Assembly: GCF_009733845.1 (NCBI RefSeq)
Contig: NZ_WNXZ01000006.1
Coordinates: 124,001-188,000, forward strand
Length of the DNA stretch: 64,000 nt
Source of the DNA: Pseudactinotalea terrae
GTDB lineage: Bacteria; Actinomycetota; Actinomycetes; Actinomycetales; Beutenbergiaceae
Direction: 5' to 3'
This document shows positions 6,349 through 36,603 of this stretch, in pieces. The notes under the pieces are model-generated. The model had not been told where the DNA came from. It ran no database searches and was given only the letters and a program-made list of their open reading frames with translations. Within the stretch, counting starts at the first letter, position 1. Each line of letters begins with the position of its first letter. The translations under genes were made by a program, and so were the position numbers.

Positions 6349-8739
6349 ATGACACACGAAGGCGAGTCGTTCGACGTTTCCCGACCCGATGGTCGTCGTC
6401 GGCTGTGGTTCCGCTCTCCGGCCGCGACGTGGGCCGAGGCCATCCCGGTCGGCAACGGGTCTCTAGGTGCCATGGTCTTCGGTCACCCTTACCGCGAGCG
6501 GCTGGCGCTGAACGCAGACACCTTGTGGGCAGGAGGGCCTGAGCGGCACGGGGTGGTAGGCGGTCCAGAGACCCTTGCGGAGATTCGCCGCCTCGTCTTC
6601 GCCGGGGAGCCCGCCGCCGCCGAAGATGCATCCCGGCGTCTGCAGGGCCCGTACAACCAGCCCTACCAGCCGCTGGGCGATCTCTTGCTAGACCACCTCG
6701 GCGATCCGGGGAGCAGCCCGGCTGACGACGACGCCTCCGTGCTTGCCTATGAGCGCGAGCTGGATCTGGGCACGGGCGTGGCCACCACCACGGTGCGGAC
6801 CGGTCGGGGTGGGTGGACAACTCGGGTGCTGTCATCGCGCCCAGCCGGTGCCGTCGTGGTGCGTGTCGAGGCCGACGGCCCGGACGGACTGCACCTGTGG
6901 GTGCGACTGGAGACCCCGCACCGGGTCGTCGAGACCCACCGGGATGGAGCCACGCTGACCTGCACCGGTCGGGCACCGACGCATGTGGCCCGGAAGGACG
7001 CCGGCGTCTCCGAGCCGATCGTGTATCACGACGACGAGGGCATAGTCTTCACCCTCGCCCTTCGGGTGCTTCCCGAGGGGGGCGAGACCCGCGCAAGGGC
7101 CGACGGGGTGGAGGTCCACGGGGCGCAGGCCGTGACCCTGTTGCTCACCGCGACCGACTCGTTCATCGACTGGGATGTGGCTCCCGGCCAGGATGTGGCC
7201 GCAGTCACCGCGCGAGCAGTGGCTCAGCTCAAGCCGATCACGGCGACCGGTTGGTCGCGCCTGCACGCCGCGGCCCGGGCCGACCACGCTGCACTCTTCG
7301 ACCGGGTGCGATTGGAGTTAGCGGACCGACATGCGGACGACCTCCCCACGGACGAGCGGCTGCGTGCCGTGCAGGCGGGAGGGCACGACCCGGCTCTGGT
7401 CGAGCTGCTGTTCGACTACGGCCGGTACCTGCTCATCGCCTCCTCCCGGCCCGGGACCCAGACCGCCAACCTGCAGGGCATCTGGAACGACCAGCCGCAG
7501 CCTCCGTGGACGTCGAACTGGACCACGAACATCAACGTCCAGATGAACTACTGGGCCGCCCTGACCACGGACCTCGCCGAGTGCCACCTCCCGTTGGCCG
7601 ACCTCATCGACTCCCTCCGCATCAGCGGTTCCCGGACCGCCACCGAGGTCTACGGCGCCCGCGGCTGGACGGCCCATCACAACGTTGACCTCTGGCGCAC
7701 CACCTGGTCGGTGGGCGGCGGTCGTGCTCAGCCCAAGCACGCGATGTGGCCGATGGGCGCGGCATGGTTGAGTGCCCATCTGGTCGAGCACGTCGCCTTC
7801 ACCGGCGATCAGGCGTTCCTCTCCGACCGGGCGTGGCCCGCGCTCCGTGGCGCCGCGGAGTTCGTGCTGGACCTCCTGGTGCCCGACGAGCGCCCGGGCG
7901 CTCCCGCGGGCCAGCTCGTCACCGTGCCGTCCACCTCGCCGGAGAACACCTTCCTCGACGCGTCCGGCCGCCCGTGTGCCGTGGACGTGATGACGACGAT
8001 GGACCTCTTCCTGGTGCGCGAGCTCTTCGCCAACGTGCGACGTGCCGCCGAGCAGCTAGGACTCCACGACGCGCTGGTCGACGAGGTCGGGGAAGCCGCC
8101 ACTCGACTCCCTGCGGTACCGATCGCCCCGGACGGCCGTCTTCAGGAATGGTCCACCCCCTTCGCCGAGGAAGAGCCTGGGCACCGCCACCTCTCGCACC
8201 TGTACGGCCTCTTCCCCGGTAGCGAGATCGACCCCGATCGAACCGGCCAGCTCGCCGCGGCGGCGAGAGCGTCGTTGCAGCACCGCCTCGACTCCGGGGG
8301 CGGGAGCACAGGCTGGAGCCGAGCCTGGGTGAGCTGCCTGTGGGCACGCCTCGGGGACGGCGCCGCCGCCGGCGAGAGCGTCGACCAGCTGCTCCGGGAC
8401 CACGCCAGCACCAACCTGTTCGACCTGCACCCACCGGACCTGTTCCAGATCGACGGCAACTTCGGCATCACCGCCGCCGTGGCGGAGATGCTGGTGCAGA
8501 GCCATTCGCCCGTGATCCGCCTGCTGCCCGCGTTGCCGCCCCAGTGGCCGAGCGGGCGAGTGCGCGGCCTGCGAGCCCGGGGCGGGATCCGGGTGGACCT
8601 CGAGTGGCGGGGCGGGAGCGTGCACCGGGCGATGCTCCGGGCCGACCGGGACATCCGGGTCGAGGTCAGTACCGGGCCCGGCGGACGAACTCGCGCAGTC
8701 CACCTCGTGGCAGGCCAGGACACGGAGATCGCCCCGTGA
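6349..8739 (+). CDS. Glycoside hydrolase family 95 (alpha-L-fucosidase / alpha-L-galactosidase type)
   Basis: The 796-residue protein has the GH95 plan: an N-terminal beta-sandwich ([18 protein letters not shown] near the start), an (alpha/alpha)6 barrel and a C-terminal beta domain. Family landmarks are present. NINVQMNYW starts at Asn394, SPEN carries Glu532, and IDGNFG carries Asp702. These align in order with the paired Asn, acid Glu and Asp of the characterised bifidobacterial alpha-1,2-fucosidase. No signal peptide is visible, so it should act in the cytoplasm on imported oligosaccharides, as expected beside an ABC importer. GH95 also includes enzymes for L-galactose in plant xyloglucan and rhamnogalacturonan II. 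No good ribosome-binding site precedes the ATG. Confidence 0.92.
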
Positions 8740-17131: not shown

Positions 17132-20100
17132 TCAGTGGTGGCGCCAGGCCTGCCAGTCGTCGTCACCCGAGAGGTAGGTCTCCATGGTGTGGACCCTCGC
17201 CTCGGTGCTCGTCAGCTGCGGACGACCATCGAGGTCGGCTGCGGCCGCACCCGGACCGCTGTTGTTGAACTCCCGCAGGAAGTCCTCCTCCCAGGGCCAG
17301 CCGCCCATGTCGCTCCAGGCTGGGGTGCCGACGTGCGACCCCAGCCACGAATCCCGTACCACGACCGACGGCGCGACGTCCGGGTCGCTGCTCGGATGCC
17401 ACGGGCGGCCGAGGAACACGGTGCCTGCTGCCGCGTCGGAGGTGAACCGGCTGTCGACGAAGAGGAACCCGAGCGTCCCGTTCTGGGTCGCCGGTGCGGT
17501 CACGTACCCGTTGACCTCCTGGCCGCGGTCCAGGGAGTGGATCTCGGAGCCGTCGACGACGAGGGTGGCACGACCGTAGATGAAGTCGACGTCGCCCTCG
17601 ATGTAGGAGTCGGTGACGTAGACGCGCGACACCTCACCCTTGGGCGACTCGGCCAGGAACGTGTCCTGGTTGCCGAGCAGCCGCACCGCCTCCAGCACCA
17701 GCCGGTCGCCGACCGTGCGCAGCGCCTGCGCCTGGCTGGGGCCGTTGGCCACCTCGTCGTACCCGTTCTCGATCGTGATCGCCTCGACGGTGACGTCATC
17801 GGCGAGGATCGCGAGCGTCGCTGCCCCCGTGCTTCCGAAGACACCGCCATAGAACTTGGCCTGGCCGGCGGCGAGGTCGTAGGTGAGCACCACGTCAGCC
17901 GGGTCTCCGGTCGCACCGCGGATGGTCAGGTCGTCAGCACCCGGCCACACCCGCACGATCTCGCGGTAGGTGCCCGGCTCGACGACGATCTCCTCGATCC
18001 GGTCCGAGCGCCAGGCGGCACCGACCGCGGCGCCGATCGACGCGTAGTCACCGGTGCCGTCCAGCGCCACGGTCACGCGGCGCGCGTCCTTGTCGGGACG
18101 TGCCAGGGTTCCGGCGCCGGCCCCGACGATCTCGACGACGTCCTCGACCGGGTCGGCCTGGTAGGCGTAGTGCTGCAGCGGGTCGAACGTGGGCCCGGTG
18201 TCGTCCTTGCGCCCACGGATGTCGTTGAAGATGTTGCCGATCGAGTGCACCCGGGACGCCTCGTCCTTGGCGACGATCGCGTCCTCGCCGTGCTCGTACA
18301 CGCTGGACTCCACCACCAGCTGCGATGCTCCGCGTGACATGGTCCCGTACTGGCCCTGGCCCTGCAGCCAGTTGTTGTACAGGTGCCCGGCGGCGACGTT
18401 GTCGATGCTGCCGTTGCGCTGGTAGGTGTTCGAGAACCAGTTGTGGTGCAGCGTGATCGTTGTGACGACGTTGTCGGTCCAGCCGACTCCGACCGTCTTG
18501 TTGTGGTCGTGGAGGAAGTTCCACGACAGCGTGATGGCGGTCGAGTCCTTGCGGACGTCGACCAGGCCGTCGCCGAGACGGGTGAACTCGTTGTGATCGA
18601 TCCACACGTGCGACGAGGTGTCCATGCGGATGCCGTCGTTGTCGTTGTCATCGCTCTTGCCGTCCCAGTCGCCCGGCACGTACGAGTCGCGGAACGTGAG
18701 GTTGCGGATGATCACGTTGTCCACGTGGTCGAGGAACAGCCCGACGCCCACGAGCTCGGCGTCGCCGAGGCCGACGATCGTCTTGTCGCCGGCGACCTCG
18801 ATCATCGAGCCGAGCTCCACGGCGTCGATACTGCCCCTCACGAAGATCGTCAACGGCTCCGCCAGGGCGGCGTAGCGGGCGAGGTCGGCCGCGGTCCGCA
18901 CGGTGACGGTGTCGCCGCCCGTACCCCCGGTCGTGCCCTGCGGCAGCTCGCCGCTCGGGGTGGAGGCGAAGCCGGTGGCGACCGGGGACCAGACCGGCCC
19001 GTCCGCCGTCGCCGTCTCGGGTGCACGGATCTTGTCGAGCACCGCCGCACCGGCGACCGCCGGGTCCGTCGGGTCCCGCCAGCGCGACAGGTCGCCCGCC
19101 CCGGCCCCGTTCGTCACGGCCCGCTCGGACACCCTGGCCGTCTGGACGACGCCGTGCGGGCCGGTCTCTCCCCACACCTGCGCCGTGAGCGTGGCGTCTG
19201 GGTTGGCCTCGTTGTACGCGGTCAGCACGTCGACCTCGGTGCCGTTGACGACCGTGCCGGAGATGTCGATGCCCTCACCGCCCCAGTTGTGGACGATCCG
19301 GTCGGCGGTGAGTGAGCTGTCCAGGTGGAAGGTGTTGTTCCGCGCCACGATGCTCGACTCCACGCCTGCACCCCAGGAGTAGCCGTAGGCCTCGGGGTTG
19401 CCCACGCGGTAGACGTTGTTGTAGACGTGCACCTGACCGAACCGGACCCGCGGCGCGCGCTGCACGAGGTCGATGAGGTCGTTGTGGTGCATCGTCACGC
19501 GCAGCGTGCCGCGGTCGGTGTAGCGAGAGTCTCCGTTGCCGAACAGCATCGACTTGTCGTGGCCCTCGAGCTTGCTCCAGGAGATCGTCACCAGGTCGGC
19601 GGCTCGTACGACGTCGAGCAGTCCGTCGTGACGCAGGAACCGCTCGCCGAAGTACTCGGGCTGCTCGGCGTCCACCGTGTCGCCGTCGTTCAGGGTCAGG
19701 TGGTCGAGCCAGACGTGCGTCGAACCGCTGACGACGAGGTTGTCCCACTCGGTCTTCCAGGTCTCACCGTTCCACGTCGGGAAGCAGTCGTAGGCGTCGG
19801 AGATCTCCAGGTTCCGCACGATGACGTTGTCGATTTCGGAGATGTTGACGACGAAGCCCGTCAGGGTGACGCCGTCGGCACCGATCAGGGTGGTGTTGGA
19901 ACCGACCTCGATCCTGATCTGCTCGCGCTGGACCGCCTGCGAGGCGTCGCGGGCGTCCTCGAGCGCTCCGCTCGCCGGCCCCTCCCACACGGCGGGGTCG
20001 TAGGCCTCGAGGTATGCCTGCAGCGTGTAGCCGTCGCGCGCGTAGTCCTCGCAGGTCAGCGGGCTGCCGTCGGCGGAGGTGTTGGCGTCGACGTCCTCGA

Positions 20101-28519: not shown

Positions 28520-29260
28520 TCAGTGGCGCGTGCGGGAGGTCTCGTCCTCGGTGACGCCGAGCTCGCCCAGCAGATCACGCCGGAGCTCATGGAGTGGGTG
28601 ACGCACCAGGTGGGCGGCGGCGATGCGTCCCTCGGCGAGGACGAGGACCTGGTCGGCCAGGCGGATCGCCTCGTCGATGTCGTGGGTGACCAGGAACATG
28701 GTGCGGCGATGGCGGGCGTGGAGCCGGCGCACGAGCTGGTGCATCGAGATCCGGGTCAGGGCGTCCAGGCCGGAGAAGGGCTCGTCCAGCAGCAGCACAT
28801 CCGGCTCTCGCACCAGCGCACGGGCGAGCGCCACCCGTTGGGCCTGGCCCCCGGACAGCGCCAGCGGCCAGTCGTCGGCCCGGTCGGCCAGGCCGACCTC
28901 ATCGAGCATCGCCACCGCGGCGGTGCGCGGACCGTGGTCGGTGCGCGGGGCGCCCGCACCCTCCAGGGCGAGGGCGACGTTGCGCCATACCGGCATCCAG
29001 GGCAGCAGCCGCGGTTCCTGGAAGGCCACGGCGACCGAACCGACCGCGAGGTGATGGCTGGCGTCTGGGCGGTCAAGTCCAGCGAGGATCCGGACCAGCG
29101 TGGACTTGCCCGAGCCGCTACGCCCGAGGAGTGCGACGATCTGCCCGAGCTCCACGTCGAGGTCCAGCCCGTCCAGCACCAGGCGCTGCCCGTACCTCTT
29201 GCTCAACCCGCGCACCTGCACCCCACCTTCGCACTGGCGAGTGGTCCTCGAGAGGCTCAT
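28520..29260 (-). CDS. thiZ: ABC transporter ATPase of a thiamine-precursor importer
   Basis: The 246-residue ATPase belongs to the nitrate/sulfonate/taurine group. It has Walker A LLGRSGSGKST, Q-loop FQEPRLLPWM, signature LSGGQAQR, Walker B VLLLDEPFSGLD and VTHDIDEA. It is last in the thiamine salvage operon and overlaps the binding-protein gene (ATGA at 29257-29260). The assignment to a pyrimidine precursor of thiamine rests on operon context (TPP riboswitch, thiM, thiE, thiD, tenA), not on residues in the ATPase. Confidence 0.85.
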   Translation of the reverse strand: MSLSRTTRQCEGGVQVRGLSKRYGQRLVLDGLDLDVELGQIVALLGRSGSGKSTLVRILAGLDRPDASHHLAVGSVAVAFQEPRLLPWMPVWRNVALALEGAGAPRTDHGPRTAAVAMLDEVGLADRADDWPLALSGGQAQRVALARALVREPDVLLLDEPFSGLDALTRISMHQLVRRLHARHRRTMFLVTHDIDEAIRLADQVLVLAEGRIAAAHLVRHPLHELRRDLLGELGVTEDETSRTRH

Positions 29261-30222
29261 GGCAACTCCCGGACGTCCACGACCGCCTCGCTGACGTCCG
29301 TGGTCGACGTGATCAGGCCCTGCTCGGCGTAGAACTCGGCGACGTCCTGCAGCTGCTCGGTGAAGTCCTCATCGGCCGGGACGATCCGCGGTGGGGTCTT
29401 GGCCGCGATCGCCTGGGCCACCTCCGGCGCGGCGCCGTCCTCGCGGTAGGCCTCGGCCAGCAGCTCCGGGTGGGCGATGACGGACTCGGCCTGCTCGGTC
29501 AGGGCGTCGTAGGCGGCCCGGACCAGCTCCGGGTGGTTGGTGAGGAAGTCCCGCGTGACCACATGCACGGTGGGGTTGGTGGCCCCGACGTCGGCGGCCA
29601 TGGCCACGAGCGTGGCCCCGTCGATGTCCTGGGCGGCCACCAGGTACTGGTCCCACGTCGCCCAGGCGTCCACCTGGCCACCGGCGAACGCGGTGGCGGC
29701 CTCCGGCGGGGCCAGGTGGACAGGCTCGACGTCCTCGATGTCCATGCCGGCCCGGGCCAGCGCCGTGCGCAGGAGATAATCACCGGTGCCGCCCTCGTTG
29801 ATCGCGACCGTGCGTCCGGAGAGGTCGCCCACCGAGGTGATGCCGGTCGCGGGGGCGGCGACGATTCCCTGCGTGTCGTTGTCGTTGACCTCCACGGCGA
29901 AGACGACCAGGTCCGGGTTGCCCTGCAATGCGGAGATGAGGGAGGTCGAACTTCCCGTCGTCATGTCGATCTGGTCAGCGGCCATGGCCTCGGCGGCCGG
30001 GGCGAAGGCGGGAAAAGAGGCGGCGATGTGCAGGGTGCCGCCGCCCTCGGTCACTGCCTCCTCCAGGTGACCGCTGGCAGTGGCCAGGGTGAGGGTGTTC
30101 TGGGTGTTGAGCGGGCCGGCCCGCAGCTCGGCGACGCCGGTGGCATCGTCGGGGGTTGCGCAGGCGACGAGAGTCAGCACCGCGGTGGCGAGCAGGGCCG
30201 CAGGCCGAAGCAGGGCGGGCAT
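29257..30222 (-). CDS. thiY: Substrate-binding lipoprotein of a thiamine-precursor importer (NMT1/ThiY-like)
   Basis: From ATG 30222 (AAGGA upstream) the protein has 321 residues and a lipoprotein signal ending in LTLVAC. The domain is of the SsuA/NrtA/ThiY type: DQIDMTTGSSTSLISAL, GRTVAINEGGTGDYLLRTAL and GGQVDAWATWDQY. Relatives bind sulfonates, nitrate or hydroxymethylpyrimidine-type precursors. In this operon, uptake of a thiamine pyrimidine breakdown product for TenA is the best inference. The sequence alone would also allow a sulfonate binder. Confidence 0.82.
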   Translation of the reverse strand: MPALLRPAALLATAVLTLVACATPDDATGVAELRAGPLNTQNTLTLATASGHLEEAVTEGGGTLHIAASFPAFAPAAEAMAADQIDMTTGSSTSLISALQGNPDLVVFAVEVNDNDTQGIVAAPATGITSVGDLSGRTVAINEGGTGDYLLRTALARAGMDIEDVEPVHLAPPEAATAFAGGQVDAWATWDQYLVAAQDIDGATLVAMAADVGATNPTVHVVTRDFLTNHPELVRAAYDALTEQAESVIAHPELLAEAYREDGAAPEVAQAIAAKTPPRIVPADEDFTEQLQDVAEFYAEQGLITSTTDVSEAVVDVRELP

Positions 30223-30224
30223 GG

Positions 30225-30986
30225 TCACATCCTTCGGGTGGCAGCGGGGAGGGCCGGGGCTCTCCAGCGCAGCAGGCGGGTCTCGACCAGCCGCACCAGG
30301 GTGTCGGTGAGGAGGCCGAGGGCGGCGTAGACGGCGACGCAGATGAGCATGATGTCGGTGCGGACGTAGGTGCGGGCGGTGGTCAGCAGATGGCCGACCC
30401 CGGCTGAGGGGTTGACGGTCTCGGCCACGATCACCGCGATCCAGGCCAGGCCGAGGGCGTAGCGCAGGCCCACGAGCACCGGTGCCAGGGCCCCGGGCAG
30501 CAGCACCAGGACCGCGCGCTGCCGGGCGCTGAGCCGGTAGACGGTGGCGACCTCCACGAGCTTGGGATCCACCGCGCGCACCCCGCTGAAGGTGTTGAGG
30601 TACACCGGCACCACGGTCGCGATGACGATCAGCGCGATCTTGGGTGCCTCTCCCAGCCCGAACCACAAGATCAGCAGCGGGGTCAGGGCCGTGAAGGGGA
30701 TGGTGCGCAGCATCTGCACCGGGCGGTCGACCAGGTCCTCCCCCACACGCCACAGCCCGGCCACCAGCCCCAGCAGCAACCCCAGAACGATGCCGACCGC
30801 GGAGCCGGCCAGCACCCGCGCCAGGCTGATCGCCAGCGCGCCGGGCAGGCTGCCGTCGACGACCATCGCCGCAGCGCTGCGCAGCAGCGTGATAGGTCCG
30901 GGCAGCACCGCCGGCGGGAGGAGCTCCAGGGCGGCGACGAGCTGCCACAGAACGATGACGGCGAGGGTGCTCGCCCAGCGTCGCAC
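30225..30986 (-). CDS. thiX: ABC transporter permease of a thiamine-precursor importer
   Basis: From GTG 30986 the protein has 253 residues and about six membrane helices. It has the SsuC/TauC-type core: VLPGPITLLRS, FGLGEAPKIALIVIATVVPVYLNTFSGV, and LGLAWIAVIVAE. The start lies 7 nt after the tenA stop and has no good ribosome-binding site, so coupling to tenA is likely; an ATG at 31028 inside tenA is the alternative. It joins the ThiY and ThiZ gene products. Confidence 0.82.
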   Translation of the reverse strand: MRRWASTLAVIVLWQLVAALELLPPAVLPGPITLLRSAAAMVVDGSLPGALAISLARVLAGSAVGIVLGLLLGLVAGLWRVGEDLVDRPVQMLRTIPFTALTPLLILWFGLGEAPKIALIVIATVVPVYLNTFSGVRAVDPKLVEVATVYRLSARQRAVLVLLPGALAPVLVGLRYALGLAWIAVIVAETVNPSAGVGHLLTTARTYVRTDIMLICVAVYAALGLLTDTLVRLVETRLLRWRAPALPAATRRM

Positions 30987-30993
30987 GGCGGAC

Positions 30994-31695
30994 TCAGACG
31001 GGCCAGGTCTCCTTCCGATAGGCGGCATCCCAGAACATCCACTCGTACCGGACGGCGCGGGCGAACGCCGCGTGCATCCGCTCCACGGTCCGTTGGTCGG
31101 CGTGCCGGGCCAGGCGATCGACGATGTCACGGGCCGCGCGGGCGGTGGCCGCGAAGCCGGGGGCGCCGTAGGTGGCGATCCAGTCACCGTAGGGATGGCC
31201 GGCCAGGTCGCCCACACGGTCCTTCAGGCGGGTGCCGACGTCGTCATAGACCCAGAAGCACGGCAGGACTCCGGCCGCCAGCTCGGGGTAGGACCCCGAG
31301 GTGCTCAGCCCCAGCAGGTAGGAGGTGTAGGCGGTGCAGGTCGGGGACTTCTCGATGGCGGCCAGATCCCCGACGTGGGCGGCGTGCAGCTCGCGCTCCA
31401 CCCGCACGGTGCGCTGCGCGCTGCCCAGCCAGAACGTCAGCTCCTCGGCGTCGATGGCGTGGTGGGCGCAGGCGGCCAGCGCCCGCCCGTAGTCGGCGAG
31501 GTAGTGGGCGTCCTGGGCCATGTAGTAGGCGAACGTCTCCCGTGGCAGGGAGCCGTCGGCCAGGGCCGTCAGGAAGGACAGGTCCTCGATGCGCCACCGG
31601 ACCGGGGCGGCGCGCTGCCAGGCCACGGCGGTGAACATGCCGGTGTCGTCGGGGTCGCGGATCGTCTCGGGGATGGTGGTGTGCGGACTGGTCAT
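30994..31695 (-). CDS. tenA: TenA family aminopyrimidine aminohydrolase / thiaminase II
   Basis: The 233-residue helical protein hydrolyses amino-pyrimidine breakdown products of thiamine to hydroxymethylpyrimidine. Family features are FAYYMAQDAHYLADYGRAL (active-site Asp and Tyr), TAYTSYLL, and the catalytic cysteine in VLPCFWVY. The C-terminal WMFWDAAY carries the usual aromatic and acidic residues. The presence of the cysteine places it in the classical TenA_C group. ATG 31695 overlaps the thiD stop (ATGA). Confidence 0.92.
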   Translation of the reverse strand: MTSPHTTIPETIRDPDDTGMFTAVAWQRAAPVRWRIEDLSFLTALADGSLPRETFAYYMAQDAHYLADYGRALAACAHHAIDAEELTFWLGSAQRTVRVERELHAAHVGDLAAIEKSPTCTAYTSYLLGLSTSGSYPELAAGVLPCFWVYDDVGTRLKDRVGDLAGHPYGDWIATYGAPGFAATARAARDIVDRLARHADQRTVERMHAAFARAVRYEWMFWDAAYRKETWPV

Positions 31696-32537
31696 CGGTC
31701 TCTGTTCTTCCCGTCGGTCTCGTCTTTCCAGATGTCGTGGCAGTGGTGCACGGGGCCGAATCCGCAGCCGATGTGGAGCGCGTCGGCGGCCCGCAAGGTG
31801 CCGGTGAGCCAGGTCTTGGCCTGACGGGTGGCCTCCAGGAGGGAGCCGGTGCGCGGGGCCAGTGCGGTGATCGCGGAGGACAGGGCGCAGCCGGTGCCGT
31901 GGGTGTTCACCGTGGGCACCCGCGGGGCGGTCAGGAGCTGCTCTCCCGCGTCGTCCAGCCACAGGTCGGTGGCGAGTGCGTCGCCACCGAGGTGGCCACC
32001 CTTGACCAGCACCCGCGCCGCGCCCATCTCCCGCAGCGCGGCGGCCTGGGCTCGCATGGTGTCGAGGTCGTCGGCGGGGTCCGTGTCGAGCAGGACGGCG
32101 GCCTCGGGGATGTTCGGGGTGATCAGTGAGACGCGCGGCAGGAGCTGGCGCATCGCCCCGACGGCGTCCTCGGCCAGCAGCCGGGAACCGGAGGTGGACA
32201 CCATGACCGGGTCGAGGACCACGACCGGCGTCGCGTCGGGGCGCTCGTCGAGGAAGGCGAGGACGGCCTCGATGGTGGCCGCGGAGGCGAGCATCCCGAT
32301 CTTGGCGGCGTCGACCGCCACGTCGTCGACGAGGGTGTCGAGCTGGGCGCGGACGAAGTGCGCGGGGACGACGTGCACGCCGGTGACACCCCGGGTGGAC
32401 TGGGCGGTCAGCGAGGTGAGCACCGCGGTGCCGTAGGCAGCCAGGGCGGAGAACGTCTTCAGGTCGCCCTGGATGCCGGCCCCACCCGAGGGGTCCGAGC
32501 CGGCGATCGTCAGCACGACCGGCGGGCGGGAACTCAC
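31692..32537 (-). CDS. thiD: Hydroxymethylpyrimidine / phosphomethylpyrimidine kinase
   Basis: The 281-residue ribokinase-family enzyme phosphorylates HMP and then HMP-P with ATP. It has LTIAGSDPSGGAGIQGDLK at the N-terminus, DPVMVSTSGS, TPNIPEA and the anion-hole/catalytic NTHGTGCALSSAI. The start is GTG 32537, overlapping the thiE stop (GTGA). The frame stays open upstream, but only through thiE. It supplies HMP-PP for thiamine phosphate synthase. Confidence 0.94.
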   Translation of the reverse strand: MSSRPPVVLTIAGSDPSGGAGIQGDLKTFSALAAYGTAVLTSLTAQSTRGVTGVHVVPAHFVRAQLDTLVDDVAVDAAKIGMLASAATIEAVLAFLDERPDATPVVVLDPVMVSTSGSRLLAEDAVGAMRQLLPRVSLITPNIPEAAVLLDTDPADDLDTMRAQAAALREMGAARVLVKGGHLGGDALATDLWLDDAGEQLLTAPRVPTVNTHGTGCALSSAITALAPRTGSLLEATRQAKTWLTGTLRAADALHIGCGFGPVHHCHDIWKDETDGKNRDR

Positions 32538-33181
32538 TGCTGACCGTCCCAGGCGGCACGCAGGCTCGCGGCCGCCACGGCTGAATCCTCTGCGGCGCAC
32601 ACCGCGGACACGACCGCCACCCCGGCGACCCCAGTCTGGCGCAGCGCACCGGCACGCTCCGTGGTGACACCACCGATGGCGACGACCGGCCACGCGCTCG
32701 CGGCGGCCACCGCGGCGGCGCCGTCCGGACCGATCGGAGCGCCGTGGTCAGGCTTGGTGCCCGTCGGCCACACCGGACCGGCGCCGAGGTAGTCCAGAAC
32801 GCCGTCGCCGAGCCCTCGGGCGGCGCTGACCTGCTCGATCGTGCTGACCGACAGACCCACGATGGCGTCCTGCCCGAGCAGCTGCCGGGCCTGGCTGGGG
32901 GGCATGTCGCGCTGACCGACGTGGACGCCGTCCGCGCCGATGGCCTCGACGAGGTGGATCCGGTCATCGACGATCAGCGGCACCCCGGTCCCCACCAGCA
33001 TCTCGCGCACCGCCAGACCGAGGGCGACGAAGTCGGCGTCAGTGGCCCCGGGATCCCGCAGCTGCACCATGGTGGCCCCGCCCGCGACCGCGGCCGCCAC
33101 CGTCGCGGGCACCCCCCGCTGCCCGCACAATCCGGTATCGGTGACGACGTACAAGCTGAGGTCCACCGCCCGGCGGGTCAC
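32534..33181 (-). CDS. thiE: Thiamine-phosphate synthase
   Basis: The 215-residue TIM-barrel enzyme joins HMP-PP and thiazole phosphate. It shows [23 protein letters not shown] (Arg for pyrophosphate), [45 protein letters not shown] and VAIGGVT. The usual KD/KE of the QLR(e/d)K element is DPG here, a mild departure. Start GTG 33181 overlaps the thiM stop (GTGA). Confidence 0.93.
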
Positions 33182-34005
33182 CAGAGCACCACCTTCTCGG
33201 TCAGCTCCTGCGAGTCGAGGGTGGCGAGGGAGTCCAGCAGCGCGACGGCGAAGCTCCCCGGGCCGGCGGCACGCTCGGCCGCAACCTCGGCGGCCACGGT
33301 GTACGTCGCAGTCGCTGTGGTCGCGGCCAGCAGCGGGTCGTCGGCGGTAGCGGCGAAGGCGGCCATGAGGGCACCCAACGCGCATCCGCCCCCTGTGACC
33401 TTCGTCAGCCATCGATGGCCGTTGGCCACGCGCACCAGTCGGGTGCCGTCGGTGATGTGGTCGACCTCCCCGGAGACCGCGACGACGGTGCCGTGCTCCC
33501 GCGCCAGCGTCCGGGCAGCGTCCAGCGCGTCCTCGGCGGCATCGACGCTTTCCGGACCACGTCCGCCGCTGCCCCCACCGGCCAGAGCGAGAATCTCCGA
33601 GGGGTTGCCGCGGATGAGCCTCGGGGCGGCGTGCTCGAGCAGGCCCTGGGCGACCCGGGTGCGCCAGGCGAGCCCGCCCACTCCGACCGGGTCGAGCACC
33701 CACGGGGTGCCGGCCGCCGCAGCGGCGCCGACCGCGCCTTCCATCGCAGCCACCGTCGCCTCCTGAGGCGTGCCGAGGTTGACCAGGACCGCGTCGGCGA
33801 CAGCAGCGAACGGCCCGGCTTCCTCCAGGTTGTCCACCATCGACGGGCTCGAGCCCGCGGCGAGCAGGACGTTGGCCGTCCACTGAGCCACGACGACGTT
33901 GGTCAGGCACTGCACCAGCGGGCCTCGACCCCGTATCGCGGTCAAAGCCTCGCCCACAGCGGCGGCGTCGAGTGGAACAGCAGGGACAGAAGAAGGTGCC
34001 GGCAT
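33178..34005 (-). CDS. thiM: Hydroxyethylthiazole kinase
   Basis: The 275-residue kinase salvages the thiazole moiety of thiamine. Motifs are [45 protein letters not shown] and the catalytic [10 protein letters not shown] (usually VTGTGC; the cysteine is kept). First gene of the salvage operon, with its ATG 5 nt after the TPP riboswitch. The riboswitch 3' end doubles as the ribosome-binding site. Confidence 0.94.
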
Positions 34006-34009
34006 GGGC

Positions 34010-34087
34010 GACGTTCCCTTCGCTAGTACGAACTAGATCAGGTTCAACGGGTGTGATCTCAGCCGTACAGCACGGCACCCCGCGTCA
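34010..34087 (-). promoter_or_regulatory. TPP riboswitch (THI element) before thiM
   Basis: Reading on the minus strand, the conserved parts occur in order: CGGGGTGCC, GGCTGAGATCACACCC, GTTGAACCTGATC, then TACTAGCGAAGGGA. GACG and CGTC at the ends can close stem P1. The terminal GAAGGGA is the only Shine-Dalgarno candidate for thiM, 4-10 nt before P1 ends. Thiamine pyrophosphate binding should therefore hide the ribosome-binding site and shut down the whole salvage operon. Confidence 0.95.
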
Positions 34088-34463
34088 GTTCCGAGCCTAA
34101 CAGTCGGGCCGTTCCCAGCACCGTGCCCTCGGCTCAGACAACCGGCCGAGGCCCCGATTCGGGATCCTGGCGCGCTGTCACCGGTGGCCGGCCCCGTTGC
34201 GGCGTTCTTCCTCGTCGCGGCCCTCGCAGCACCTCCTCCGTCTGCTGGGTCAGCACCATCTTCATGAACGCGTGGGCGATGCACTCGTCGGCGCCGCGCT
34301 CGGGCTGCGCGTGGCTCGACCTTGCTTCGTGAAGCTCAGCGGTTCGGATGAGCGGACGGCGACACATGACCGCGTCGTGCCGCTGAGACCCAGCTCGTGG
34401 ATGCCGATGAGACAGACTCAGTTCCGTTCTGTGGCCCGGGCGCGTGATGTCCGACCCGCCGCC
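34088..34463. other. 376-bp region between the TPP riboswitch and the jet remnant
   Basis: Short frames exist on both strands, including a 77-codon minus frame at 34134-34367 with the segment AHAFMKMVLTQQTEEVL, but none matches a family I know or has a clear ribosome-binding site. It may contain the thi promoter and debris from the decayed locus to the right. Confidence 0.4.
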
Positions 34464-34469
34464 TACCCT
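34464..34469 (+). promoter_or_regulatory. -10 box of a leaderless promoter for the jetA remnant
   Basis: TACCCT lies 7 nt before the GTG at 34477. The preserved promoter suggests that the remnant may still be transcribed, which could also supply mRNA for jetD. Confidence 0.4.
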
Positions 34470-34476
34470 GTGGGGC

Positions 34477-34860
34477 GTGGCAACGTTGAGTGCGGCCCTG
34501 GCTGCGACGGCTCGCTGAGCAGGACGTCGCGTGGGGCGATGCTGCGCGCCACCAACGGGCCGGTGGCGGTCGCGATCCTCGGCTCACACCTGGCCGGGGG
34601 AGACCCGGCGAGTGGCGGCCCCGGTACTGTTCGACGCCGTCGAGGCGGACCTGGAGGAGCTGCGCGGACACGGGTTCGCGCTGCCCCAGACCGCCGTGCA
34701 GTACTGCCGGGACTGGCTGGATGCCGGCTACCTGGTGCGTCGACCGGGACAGGCACGCGAGGAGAGCTACGAGCTCAGCGAGGGCGCGCTGGTGGCGGTC
34801 CGGTTCGTCGAGCAGCTCGACGCCCCTCGGCCTGCGGTCACCGAGTCGCCCCGGCTCGTT
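34477..34860 (+). pseudogene. jetA: Wadjet jetA (DUF3375) remnant: N-terminal part only, several frameshifts
   Basis: GTG 34477 opens a frame that stops at 34518. Homology continues in other frames: AMLRATNGPVAVAILGSHL near 34540-34597, then RRVAAPVLFDAVEADLEELR from about 34610. RDWLDAGYLVRRPG, YELSEGALVAVRFVEQL and VTESPRL follow up to about 34860. This is the order seen at the start of DUF3375/JetA, the kleisin-like subunit of the Wadjet SMC complex. A full JetA has about 450-500 residues; here only about 125 can be traced. At least two frame breaks make it non-functional. Confidence 0.75.
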
Positions 34861-35464
34861 GAGCGCGGACGAGGATCGTGAGGATGCCGAGGCGCGGTTC
34901 GCGGTGCTGGCGCGGGTGGTGCGGCGGCTGGGATCCTCCGAGGCCGCCGACCGCAGCTGGCAGGTGCAGTGCCTCGACACCCGCCGGCACGTGAGGTTCA
35001 TCGGGCGGGAGGTCGATCTCGCGGGCACCGTGATGGATGTCTACGACTCCGGCGAGGGCCGGTCCGGCGGGCAGAAGCAGAAGCTCGTGGTGTTCTGCCT
35101 GGCGGCGGCGCTGAGGTACCAGCTGACCAAGGACTCCGAGGCGGTGCCGAGCTACGGTTCGGTCGTCATGGACGAGGCCTTCGACAAGGCCGATGCAGCC
35201 TTCACCCGGATGGCGCTGGACATCTTCCGCGAGTTCGGGTTTCACATGATCCTCGCGACGCCACTGAAGCTGCTGCAGACCCTGGAGGACTACGTCGGAG
35301 GCATCGGGCTCGTGACGTGCCACGACTCCCAGGCCTCACGCGTGGCGCCGGTGGCGTTCGACGACCTGCCCGGTTCGGCCATGGGCAGCGCCGACCATCG
35401 GTCCGAGGACCAGCCGCACAGCGGTGACCAGCAGACGCTGGCGCTCGAGCTCGATCTGTCGTGA
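34861..35464 (+). pseudogene. jetC: Wadjet jetC (SMC-like ATPase) remnant: C-terminal part only
   Basis: From about 34861 the frame reads SADEDREDAEARFAVLARVV and then the C-terminal ATPase lobe of JetC. It holds the signature SGGQKQKLVVFCLAAALRYQL, Walker B YGSVVMDEAFDKAD, and the D/H-loop region FGFHMILATPLKLLQTLEDYV. JetC is normally about 1100 residues. The N-terminal Walker A lobe and the coiled coils are missing, and all of jetB with them, as if one deletion joined early jetA to late jetC. The stop overlaps the jetD start (GTGA). About 200 residues remain and cannot form an ATPase alone. Confidence 0.82.
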
Positions 35465-36603
35465 CCACGATGGTGACGGTCGAGGAGGCCCGGGCCGCCG
35501 CCGTCCGGGTGTACGAACGACGGCACGCGACGTGGGCTACCGAGGGCCCTGGTGCCGGGCCGTTGCTCGACCTGCCGCTGCACCCGCCCACCGAGACCAC
35601 CGCGCTCGCCGCTTCGCAGGCGGTAGCGGCGTGGATCGCGCGCTGGCGCGAGACGGAGGCTGCGTTCGGCCCTGGGCGGCTCGAGTGGGCCCCGCGGCGC
35701 TGGGCGAGCATGGGGACGCAGGTCGTACCGGCCCGGCTGTGGCTGCACGAACCGGCCGAGGTGGCGCGGTTCGGGCGTCGGTTGGAGGCCTGGCGCCTGG
35801 CGAGCCGGCGGGCCGCCGCCCTGCTGGCGGCACTGCCCGAGTCGCCCGAGGTCGTGGTGACCGTGCAGCGGAAGCTGAGCAACGCCGTCGGGCTCGACGA
35901 GGACGATGCCGAGCGGCTGCTCGGCGTGCTGACCTGGCTCCAGCAGTTTCCCGACTCGGGGCTTTTCGTGCGGCAGCTGCCGGTCCGGGGCGTGCACACG
36001 AAGTGGATCGAGCGGCACCGGTCGCTGGTCAGCTCGCTGATCGGCGCTGCGACGGGCCATCCCGACCTGGGGCTGGCGACCCGGCCCGAGCTGCTGCGGC
36101 TGCGACTGCTCGATGGCACGAGGCTCGCTGGAGTCGCGGATCTTGCAGCCCCCTTGGCCGATGTGAGCAGGCTGGAGATTCGGCCGGCGAGGGTCGTGGT
36201 CGTGGAGAACCTCGAGAGCATGCTGGCGCTGCCGCCGCTCCCGGCCACGGTGGCGCTGCACGGTCAGGGCTATCTCGCGCGGGTGCTCGGCCGGCTGCCG
36301 TGGGTCCGTGCCGCCGACGTCGTCTACTGGGGTGACCTGGACACCGATGGGTTCAACATCCTCAGCATCGCTCGAGACAAGGTGCCGCAGACCCGGTCGG
36401 TGCTGATGGACAGAGCCACGCTGACGGCGCATCTCGACCTCTGCGTCCCCGACCCGCAGCCGCGCCGCTCGTTCGTGGGCGCACTCACGGAGTCCGAGCT
36501 CGATGCTGTCGCTGCGCTGCGAGAGGCAGGCGACGTGCGGCTCGAGCAGGAGCGGATCCCGTGGGAGTCGGCGGTCGCCAGCGTGCGGGCCGCCCTGGGC
36601 TGA
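35461..36603 (+). CDS. jetD: Wadjet nuclease subunit JetD (DUF3322-DUF2220, Toprim), orphaned
   Basis: The 380-residue protein looks complete. The N-terminal DUF3322 part covers about residues 1-190, with ERHRSLV at its end. The C-terminal DUF2220 Toprim domain has VVVENLESMLALP (catalytic Glu) and YWGDLDTDGFNIL (Asp-x-Asp). In Wadjet, JetABC extrudes plasmid loops and JetD cuts the DNA. Here its partners are wrecked, yet no frameshift or missing motif is visible in JetD. The start GTG 35461 overlaps the jetC stop, so it still depends on upstream translation. It may be a recent orphan or may act with another SMC complex. Confidence 0.88.
   Translation: MTTMVTVEEARAAAVRVYERRHATWATEGPGAGPLLDLPLHPPTETTALAASQAVAAWIARWRETEAAFGPGRLEWAPRRWASMGTQVVPARLWLHEPAEVARFGRRLEAWRLASRRAAALLAALPESPEVVVTVQRKLSNAVGLDEDDAERLLGVLTWLQQFPDSGLFVRQLPVRGVHTKWIERHRSLVSSLIGAATGHPDLGLATRPELLRLRLLDGTRLAGVADLAAPLADVSRLEIRPARVVVVENLESMLALPPLPATVALHGQGYLARVLGRLPWVRAADVVYWGDLDTDGFNILSIARDKVPQTRSVLMDRATLTAHLDLCVPDPQPRRSFVGALTESELDAVAALREAGDVRLEQERIPWESAVASVRAALG

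Follow-up and report, generated by a model that had tools for sequence, protein, structure and literature searches.

Genes and features at the locus

On the plus strand of the window, as we term the whole 64,000-nt stretch of DNA that was analysed, profile searches and alignment locate the start of jetA, the end of jetC and a complete jetD at positions 34477-36603, ordered as in jetABCD (Table 1). The jetA remnant is matched by PF11855 (DUF3375; 4.5e-22) and by the PADLOC model PDLC00460 (2.8e-29, model positions 38-125 of 487), and its homology shifts from frame 1 through frames 2 and 3 back to frame 1, with a frame-1 TGA near 34516. The jetC tail is matched by PF13558 (SbcC_Walker_B; 2.7e-23) and by PDLC00518 (9.4e-86), of which only model positions 936-1101 of 1112 are covered; it represents the last ~203 codons of JetC, 176 of them aligned, and sits within a mechanically called ORF of 324 aa (34490-35464). 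No match to jetB was obtained at the locus. Profiles and frame mapping thus agree with the first-pass annotation, which had described a jetABCD-ordered remnant with a frameshifted JetA start and a JetC tail carrying Walker B. A promoter scan of the locus was uninformative: it returned no sigma-70-like site and a single terminator-like site, located inside jetD, where shuffled sequences gave a mean of 0.6.

Table 1 Features of the Wadjet remnant and of the adjoining thiamine cluster in the window
Feature	Position	Strand	Basis and remarks
Thiamine cluster	28520-34092	-	
TPP riboswitch over the thiamine cluster	33997-34092		70.6 bits
jetA remnant, N-terminal ~123 codons	34477-34848	+	Profile matches; three frame changes at ~34505-34600
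Deletion joint	34849-34853		Alignment to L008; ~4.6 kb absent by L008 lengths
jetC 3' end, Walker B half of the head, open frame	34853-35464	+	Profiles and alignment
jetD, complete, 380 aa, GTG start overlapping the jetC stop	35461-36603	+	ORF and profiles

The nearest intact relative found is a full locus of an uncultured Isoptericola (L008), in which all four genes are complete, whereas in the window only jetD is. Identity to this locus amounts to 78% in the JetC tail (34853-35380 against JetC 946-1121 of L008), 68-73% in the JetA N-terminus and ~50% in JetD. In the alignment, JetA breaks off at about codon 123 and JetC sets in immediately afterwards, at about codon 946, and the sequence that is missing by comparison comprises the rest of jetA, all of jetB and most of jetC. 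The comparison with full jetABCD loci, which had been proposed together with the annotation, thereby mapped the ends of the deletion: the joint reported earlier is real, although it lies at 34849-34853 rather than near 34860, and the analysis bears out the postulated collapse, in which a type I Wadjet locus lost several kilobases. Since the joint is internal to a contig of 344.5 kb, a contig edge is not the cause of the gap.

Working type I Wadjet systems (jetABCD/MksBEFG) have jetA, jetB, jetC and jetD in this order and a complete JetC ATPase head with both halves. The window shares the gene order, but it has no JetB, retains jetA and jetC as fragments only and lacks a complete head, so that the SMC complex cannot form. 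Together with the broken frames and the large deletion relative to intact relatives, this identifies the locus as the decayed form of a type I Wadjet operon, which does not belong to the working systems. MksBEF loci without MksG represent the opposite half of a broken jetABCD operon; the window keeps the nuclease and has lost the motor.

The source genome (4.76 Mb in 15 contigs, completeness listed as 100) yielded in a genome profile search a single JetD_C match, a single JetA (DUF3375) match, which is the window fragment, and no JetB match; the only JetC match among the best 50 of 64 candidates scored is the window tail. A second Wadjet copy in this genome was ruled out, as all jet matches fall at the window locus (for JetC, among the same best 50 of 64 candidates). 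An intact jetABC elsewhere, which the first-pass annotation had named as the finding that would speak against a collapse, was accordingly not found in the genome.

The orphan JetD

The JetD/MksG family combines an N-terminal DUF3322 domain with a JetD_C Toprim domain and is characterized by a metal-binding glutamate together with an aspartate, a tyrosine, a glutamate pair and DNA-binding arginine and lysine residues. Both domains were detected above the curated cut-offs in the window protein (JetD_C 2.5e-43, DUF3322 4.4e-41), which in addition matches PDLC00530 almost end to end (3.2e-115, 383.5 bits, model positions 3-386 of 391; jetD GTG at 35461, jetC stop ending at 35464). All eight catalytic and DNA-binding residues checked are kept (R171, K181, E249, Y271, D292, D294, E362 and E364), their counterparts in MksG having been taken from a comparison with that protein and from the text of PMC10123090. 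The AlphaFold2 model has a mean pLDDT of 94.6. Among solved proteins, MksG of C. glutamicum (8b7f) is the nearest in sequence (1e-51 over the full length) and also the top Foldseek match (E 1.4e-30, TM 0.55), with JetD 7til also among the best. By its sequence features the protein belongs to its nuclease family and is a predicted Toprim nuclease; the complete JetD described earlier is confirmed in length, in both domains and in the key residues. Closer relatives were also sought on mobile elements: phages gave no match at E 1e-3, 19 stretches of viral contigs fitted a pattern and contained no relative, and 11 of 72,556 plasmid records matched at E 1e-5, all with less than 60% identity.

What a JetD protein does without its partners has been studied in other organisms. 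According to the available text of PMC10123090, MksG of C. glutamicum alone cuts DNA slowly and in a metal-dependent manner, best with Mn2+ and at high concentration, and the exchanges E236A or D279A impair this activity. The same text reports that plasmid pBHK18, in contrast to pJC1, becomes more abundant when mksB, mksF or mksG is deleted, that MksG was tracked in mksB-null cells, and that JetD of P. aeruginosa and of E. coli strictly needs JetABC and ATP in vitro. At least in C. glutamicum, cells without MksB therefore tolerate MksG/JetD and have lost the restriction of pBHK18, as far as this text goes. In the available part of a review, cleavage by JetD alone is confined to artificially high concentrations, and the protein is described as likely autoinhibited as long as JetABC has not acted (PMC10586767). 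The expectation that a nuclease subunit without its loop extruder should be useless or risky holds in its first half, for plasmid defence, and the premise of a risk is weakened by the tolerance of MksG in C. glutamicum without mksB.

Broken jet operons in other genomes

The jet genes were surveyed in 396 genomes of the order, with a few first-look candidates scored per genome and the resulting lists compared by eye. JetD (PDLC00530) was matched in 90 genomes, JetA (two models) in 169 and JetB in 170, 168 of them over the cut-off; PDLC00530 is one of several JetD models, and genomes with JetA and no match to it are not all losses. Four of the 90 JetD-positive genomes had no JetA match (G021, G041, G155, G221). 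The same four and G000 had no JetB match, and JetD is complete in G000, G041 and G155.

Four loci resemble the window. In a genome close to Actinomyces denticolens (G041; locus L075), the first jetA codons are fused in frame to the end of jetC and followed by a complete jetD, the locus sharing 90-92% DNA identity with the full locus L020 of Actinomyces denticolens. In the orphan JetD of L075 (8934-10139), the metal-binding glutamate is replaced by aspartate and the DNA-binding lysine by alanine; L020 keeps both residues. Nesterenkonia muleiensis (L009) has an in-frame jetA'-'jetC fusion of 345 aa ahead of a complete jetD, and its flanks match the full locus L010 of N. alkaliphila; the order is that of the window, whereas the fusion is in frame and the joint differs. 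In L076 (G155) the end of jetC, broken further upstream, precedes jetD, and in a Nostoc MAG (L037) pieces of a DDE transposase (7488-8329) separate a fragment of jetA from one of jetC, with a complete jetD after them. In JetD of L009, L076 and L037, both the metal-binding and the DNA-binding residues are conserved. Short C-terminal JetD pieces are present in G021, G221, G357 and G260.

The reverse loss occurs as well. In L077, L078 and L079, JetABC is complete and JetD has been deleted, although L078 and L079 may share one event. A further candidate (L080) is cut off by the end of its contig. The idea that JetD is always the subunit kept was rejected on the basis of these three loci. L077 retains what appear to be the first codons of jetD. 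We claim that such breakage of the operon recurs and claim no preference for keeping JetD, because JetD served as the search query. According to the available text of PMC12287153, incomplete jet loci are known in other groups, and in that of PMC9148166 jetA and jetC are regarded as pseudogenes in some Xylella strains; among the literature titles and abstract openings listed, none gave an account of JetD kept alone after loss of JetABC.

Age of the collapse and selection on JetD

The JetC tail is half of an ATPase head and cannot function alone. In the window, none of its 26 conserved columns is altered (none of 27 in the larger set), and the same holds for all 35 columns of JetD that are at least 90% conserved among 56 reference proteins, as they were among 61. 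The smaller sets were obtained by leaving out duplicate loci (L005/L090, L006/L091, L048/L089), loci cut by contig ends and L062, which occupies the same place as L076, and this reduction left the conclusions unaltered. L097 and L098 were left out of the analysis, L076 and L037 entered only the residue check and not the JetD column test, and L009 and L075 contain too little JetC for the tail test. An unaltered set of columns is not rare, given that 31 of the 56 reference JetD proteins and 45 of 59 reference JetC tails are likewise free of deviations.

The terminal branch of the JetC tail is not lengthened (0.159, against 0.174 for L008), and that of JetD is longer than in L008 (0.758 against 0.567). 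The ratio of JetD to JetC-tail distance is the third highest of 50 (third of 54 in the larger set, ranked on a FastTree tree), so the window JetD is not evolving slowly; by root-to-tip distance it ranks 36th of 50, below the median. As the JetC tail, though without function, has stayed as free of blemishes as JetD and the tail branch has not lengthened, the best reading of these sequences is that the collapse is recent and that no selection on JetD is required: if a useless JetC tail is still unblemished, an intact JetD calls for no special protection. A rough calculation by hand from the 26 unaltered tail columns would place the loss of JetABC at less than ~0.05 neutral substitutions per site (95%). 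Against a recent collapse we count the longer JetD branch, its high ratio to the tail, the many reference proteins that are likewise free of deviations and the jetA remnant, which carries three frame changes within ~95 bp while the 1.7 kb of JetC tail and JetD carry none. This last contrast could reflect an earlier lesion in JetA, constraint acting on the 3' portion or sequencing errors in G runs, and JetA may have been hit first.

Of the three explanations that the first-pass annotation had offered for the intact jetD frame, very recent loss fits best because of the unblemished JetC tail. Among jet genes and the immediate downstream neighbours, no new partner was seen: no other jet gene was found in the genome, and the next two genes downstream of jetD are a DUF2200 gene and a DUF1269 gene. 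An inhibited state would need no special adaptation, since JetD is held to be likely autoinhibited until JetABC acts.

Estimates of omega are available for two related pairs; the nearest relative of the window is only ~50% identical in JetD, and the figures are those of the other loci. For JetD of L075 and L020, omega is 0.195 (39 nonsynonymous and 67 synonymous differences), a value that mixes the time before and after the deletion and falls inside the range of nine other frames of the same pair (0.122-0.521), some of which are mechanical frames; two of 12 rows were set aside, a pair with 38% identity (omega 0.755) and a frame inside jetD (omega 2.86). For L009 and L010, omega is 0.275 in JetD, 0.203 in the JetA part and 0.224 in a flanking gene, with the misaligned 11401 frame (omega 1.95) left out.

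Proposed course and alternative explanations

We regard the locus, with a probability of roughly 0.8, as a type I Wadjet (MksBEFG-like) operon that decayed recently, having lost ~4.6 kb, and whose orphan JetD is tolerated and will decay. We infer that the ancestral jetABCD operon lost this segment most simply in one illegitimate recombination, which would have removed JetB entirely and the greater part of both the kleisin JetA and the SMC motor JetC. A short direct repeat common to jetA and jetC perhaps prompted the deletion. In L008 the two genes have one 13-bp word in common and none longer (jetA nt 373-385, jetC nt 2818-2830), and the joint of the window corresponds to about jetA 369-372 and jetC 2834, so that the deletion ends within ~6 nt of the word. 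Both copies of the repeat are absent from the window, hence a simple exchange at the repeat cannot give the joint without further trimming; our best guess is slippage close to the repeat and subsequent trimming. JetD may still be translated, the overlap of its start codon with the jetC stop being preserved. With JetABC gone, it would have no loader or activator on small circles, and the cell should therefore have lost plasmid restriction. The lone JetD would be tolerated as a weak or autoinhibited nuclease and would in time decay.

The alternative that fares best, although we consider it unlikely, is that free JetD is mildly harmful and is inactivated by selection once JetABC is gone. The window with all checked residues kept, L075 with its E-to-D and K-to-A exchanges and the short JetD pieces would then form an early, a later and a last stage. 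The graded set is, however, drawn from unrelated lineages and is not a time course, and the metal- and DNA-binding residues are unchanged in L009, L076 and L037. As this explanation differs from recent decay solely in selected instead of neutral loss, the present data fit both.

It is improbable that JetD has been kept by selection as a stand-alone nuclease acting on plasmids, on phages or in repair, which would make the locus a functional derivative. A complete JetD after a broken jetABC occurs in several lineages (the window, L009, L075, L076 and L037), but a JetD query over-represents such cases, the reverse loss is found in L077-L079 and several other JetD matches are short pieces. The fusions of L009 and L075 are in frame and omega for JetD of L075 is low, yet this value is no lower than those of some neighbouring frames, and the L075 protein has lost the glutamate and the lysine that L020 keeps. 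MksG alone cuts DNA in vitro, but without MksB it does not restrict pBHK18 in C. glutamicum, and the P. aeruginosa and E. coli proteins depended strictly on JetABC and ATP (available text of PMC10123090). A more specific version, to which we attach very little weight, treats the jetA'-'jetC-jetD remnants as a recurrent and kept Wadjet derivative in which JetD, with the truncated leader gene serving its expression, would act without the SMC motor and could be, for instance, a slow anti-plasmid or anti-phage nuclease. That the true operon is intact and the break an assembly or sequencing artefact is hardly credible: two of the three frame changes in jetA were read as lying at G runs, but the joint lies inside its contig, no jetB match was obtained with genome completeness listed as 100%, the neighbouring genes are single open frames and comparable architecture is found in other assemblies.

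With recent decay as the preferred reading, the window represents the ordinary decay of a type I Wadjet locus, and it is not singular, similar remnants being found elsewhere. The finding is modest, as incomplete jet loci are already known, and its value lies in the comparative series: the window, L009, L075, L076 and L037 together with the reverse cases L077-L079 form a small series of Wadjet operon breakage, in which nucleases that outlive their activator provide a natural test of whether JetD alone is harmful, useful or inert. With the system lost, the organism is predicted to have become open to small plasmids. Two further observations concern related loci. L081 (5630-8823) has nearly full-length jetA and jetB genes, with a deletion that begins in jetC and extends into jetD, and in L009 a second, frameshifted JetD C-terminal piece (18386-18581) lies ~7.5 kb downstream of the complete jetD.

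Genomic setting within the genus

JetD has no match in two congener genomes (G001 and G002). The lpd-like oxidoreductase gene and the DUF2200 gene, which in the window bracket the thiamine cluster and the Wadjet remnant, sit closer together in both congeners, and the interval holds other genes there, RtcB in G002 and an EamA transporter among others in G001. The Wadjet operon therefore occupies an interval that is variable within the genus, and it was probably gained there and later broken. The thiamine cluster has no match in the corresponding interval of the two congeners. In the window it adjoins the Wadjet remnant and comprises ThiM-, ThiE-, ThiD- and TenA-like genes together with genes of an NMT1-type ABC transporter.
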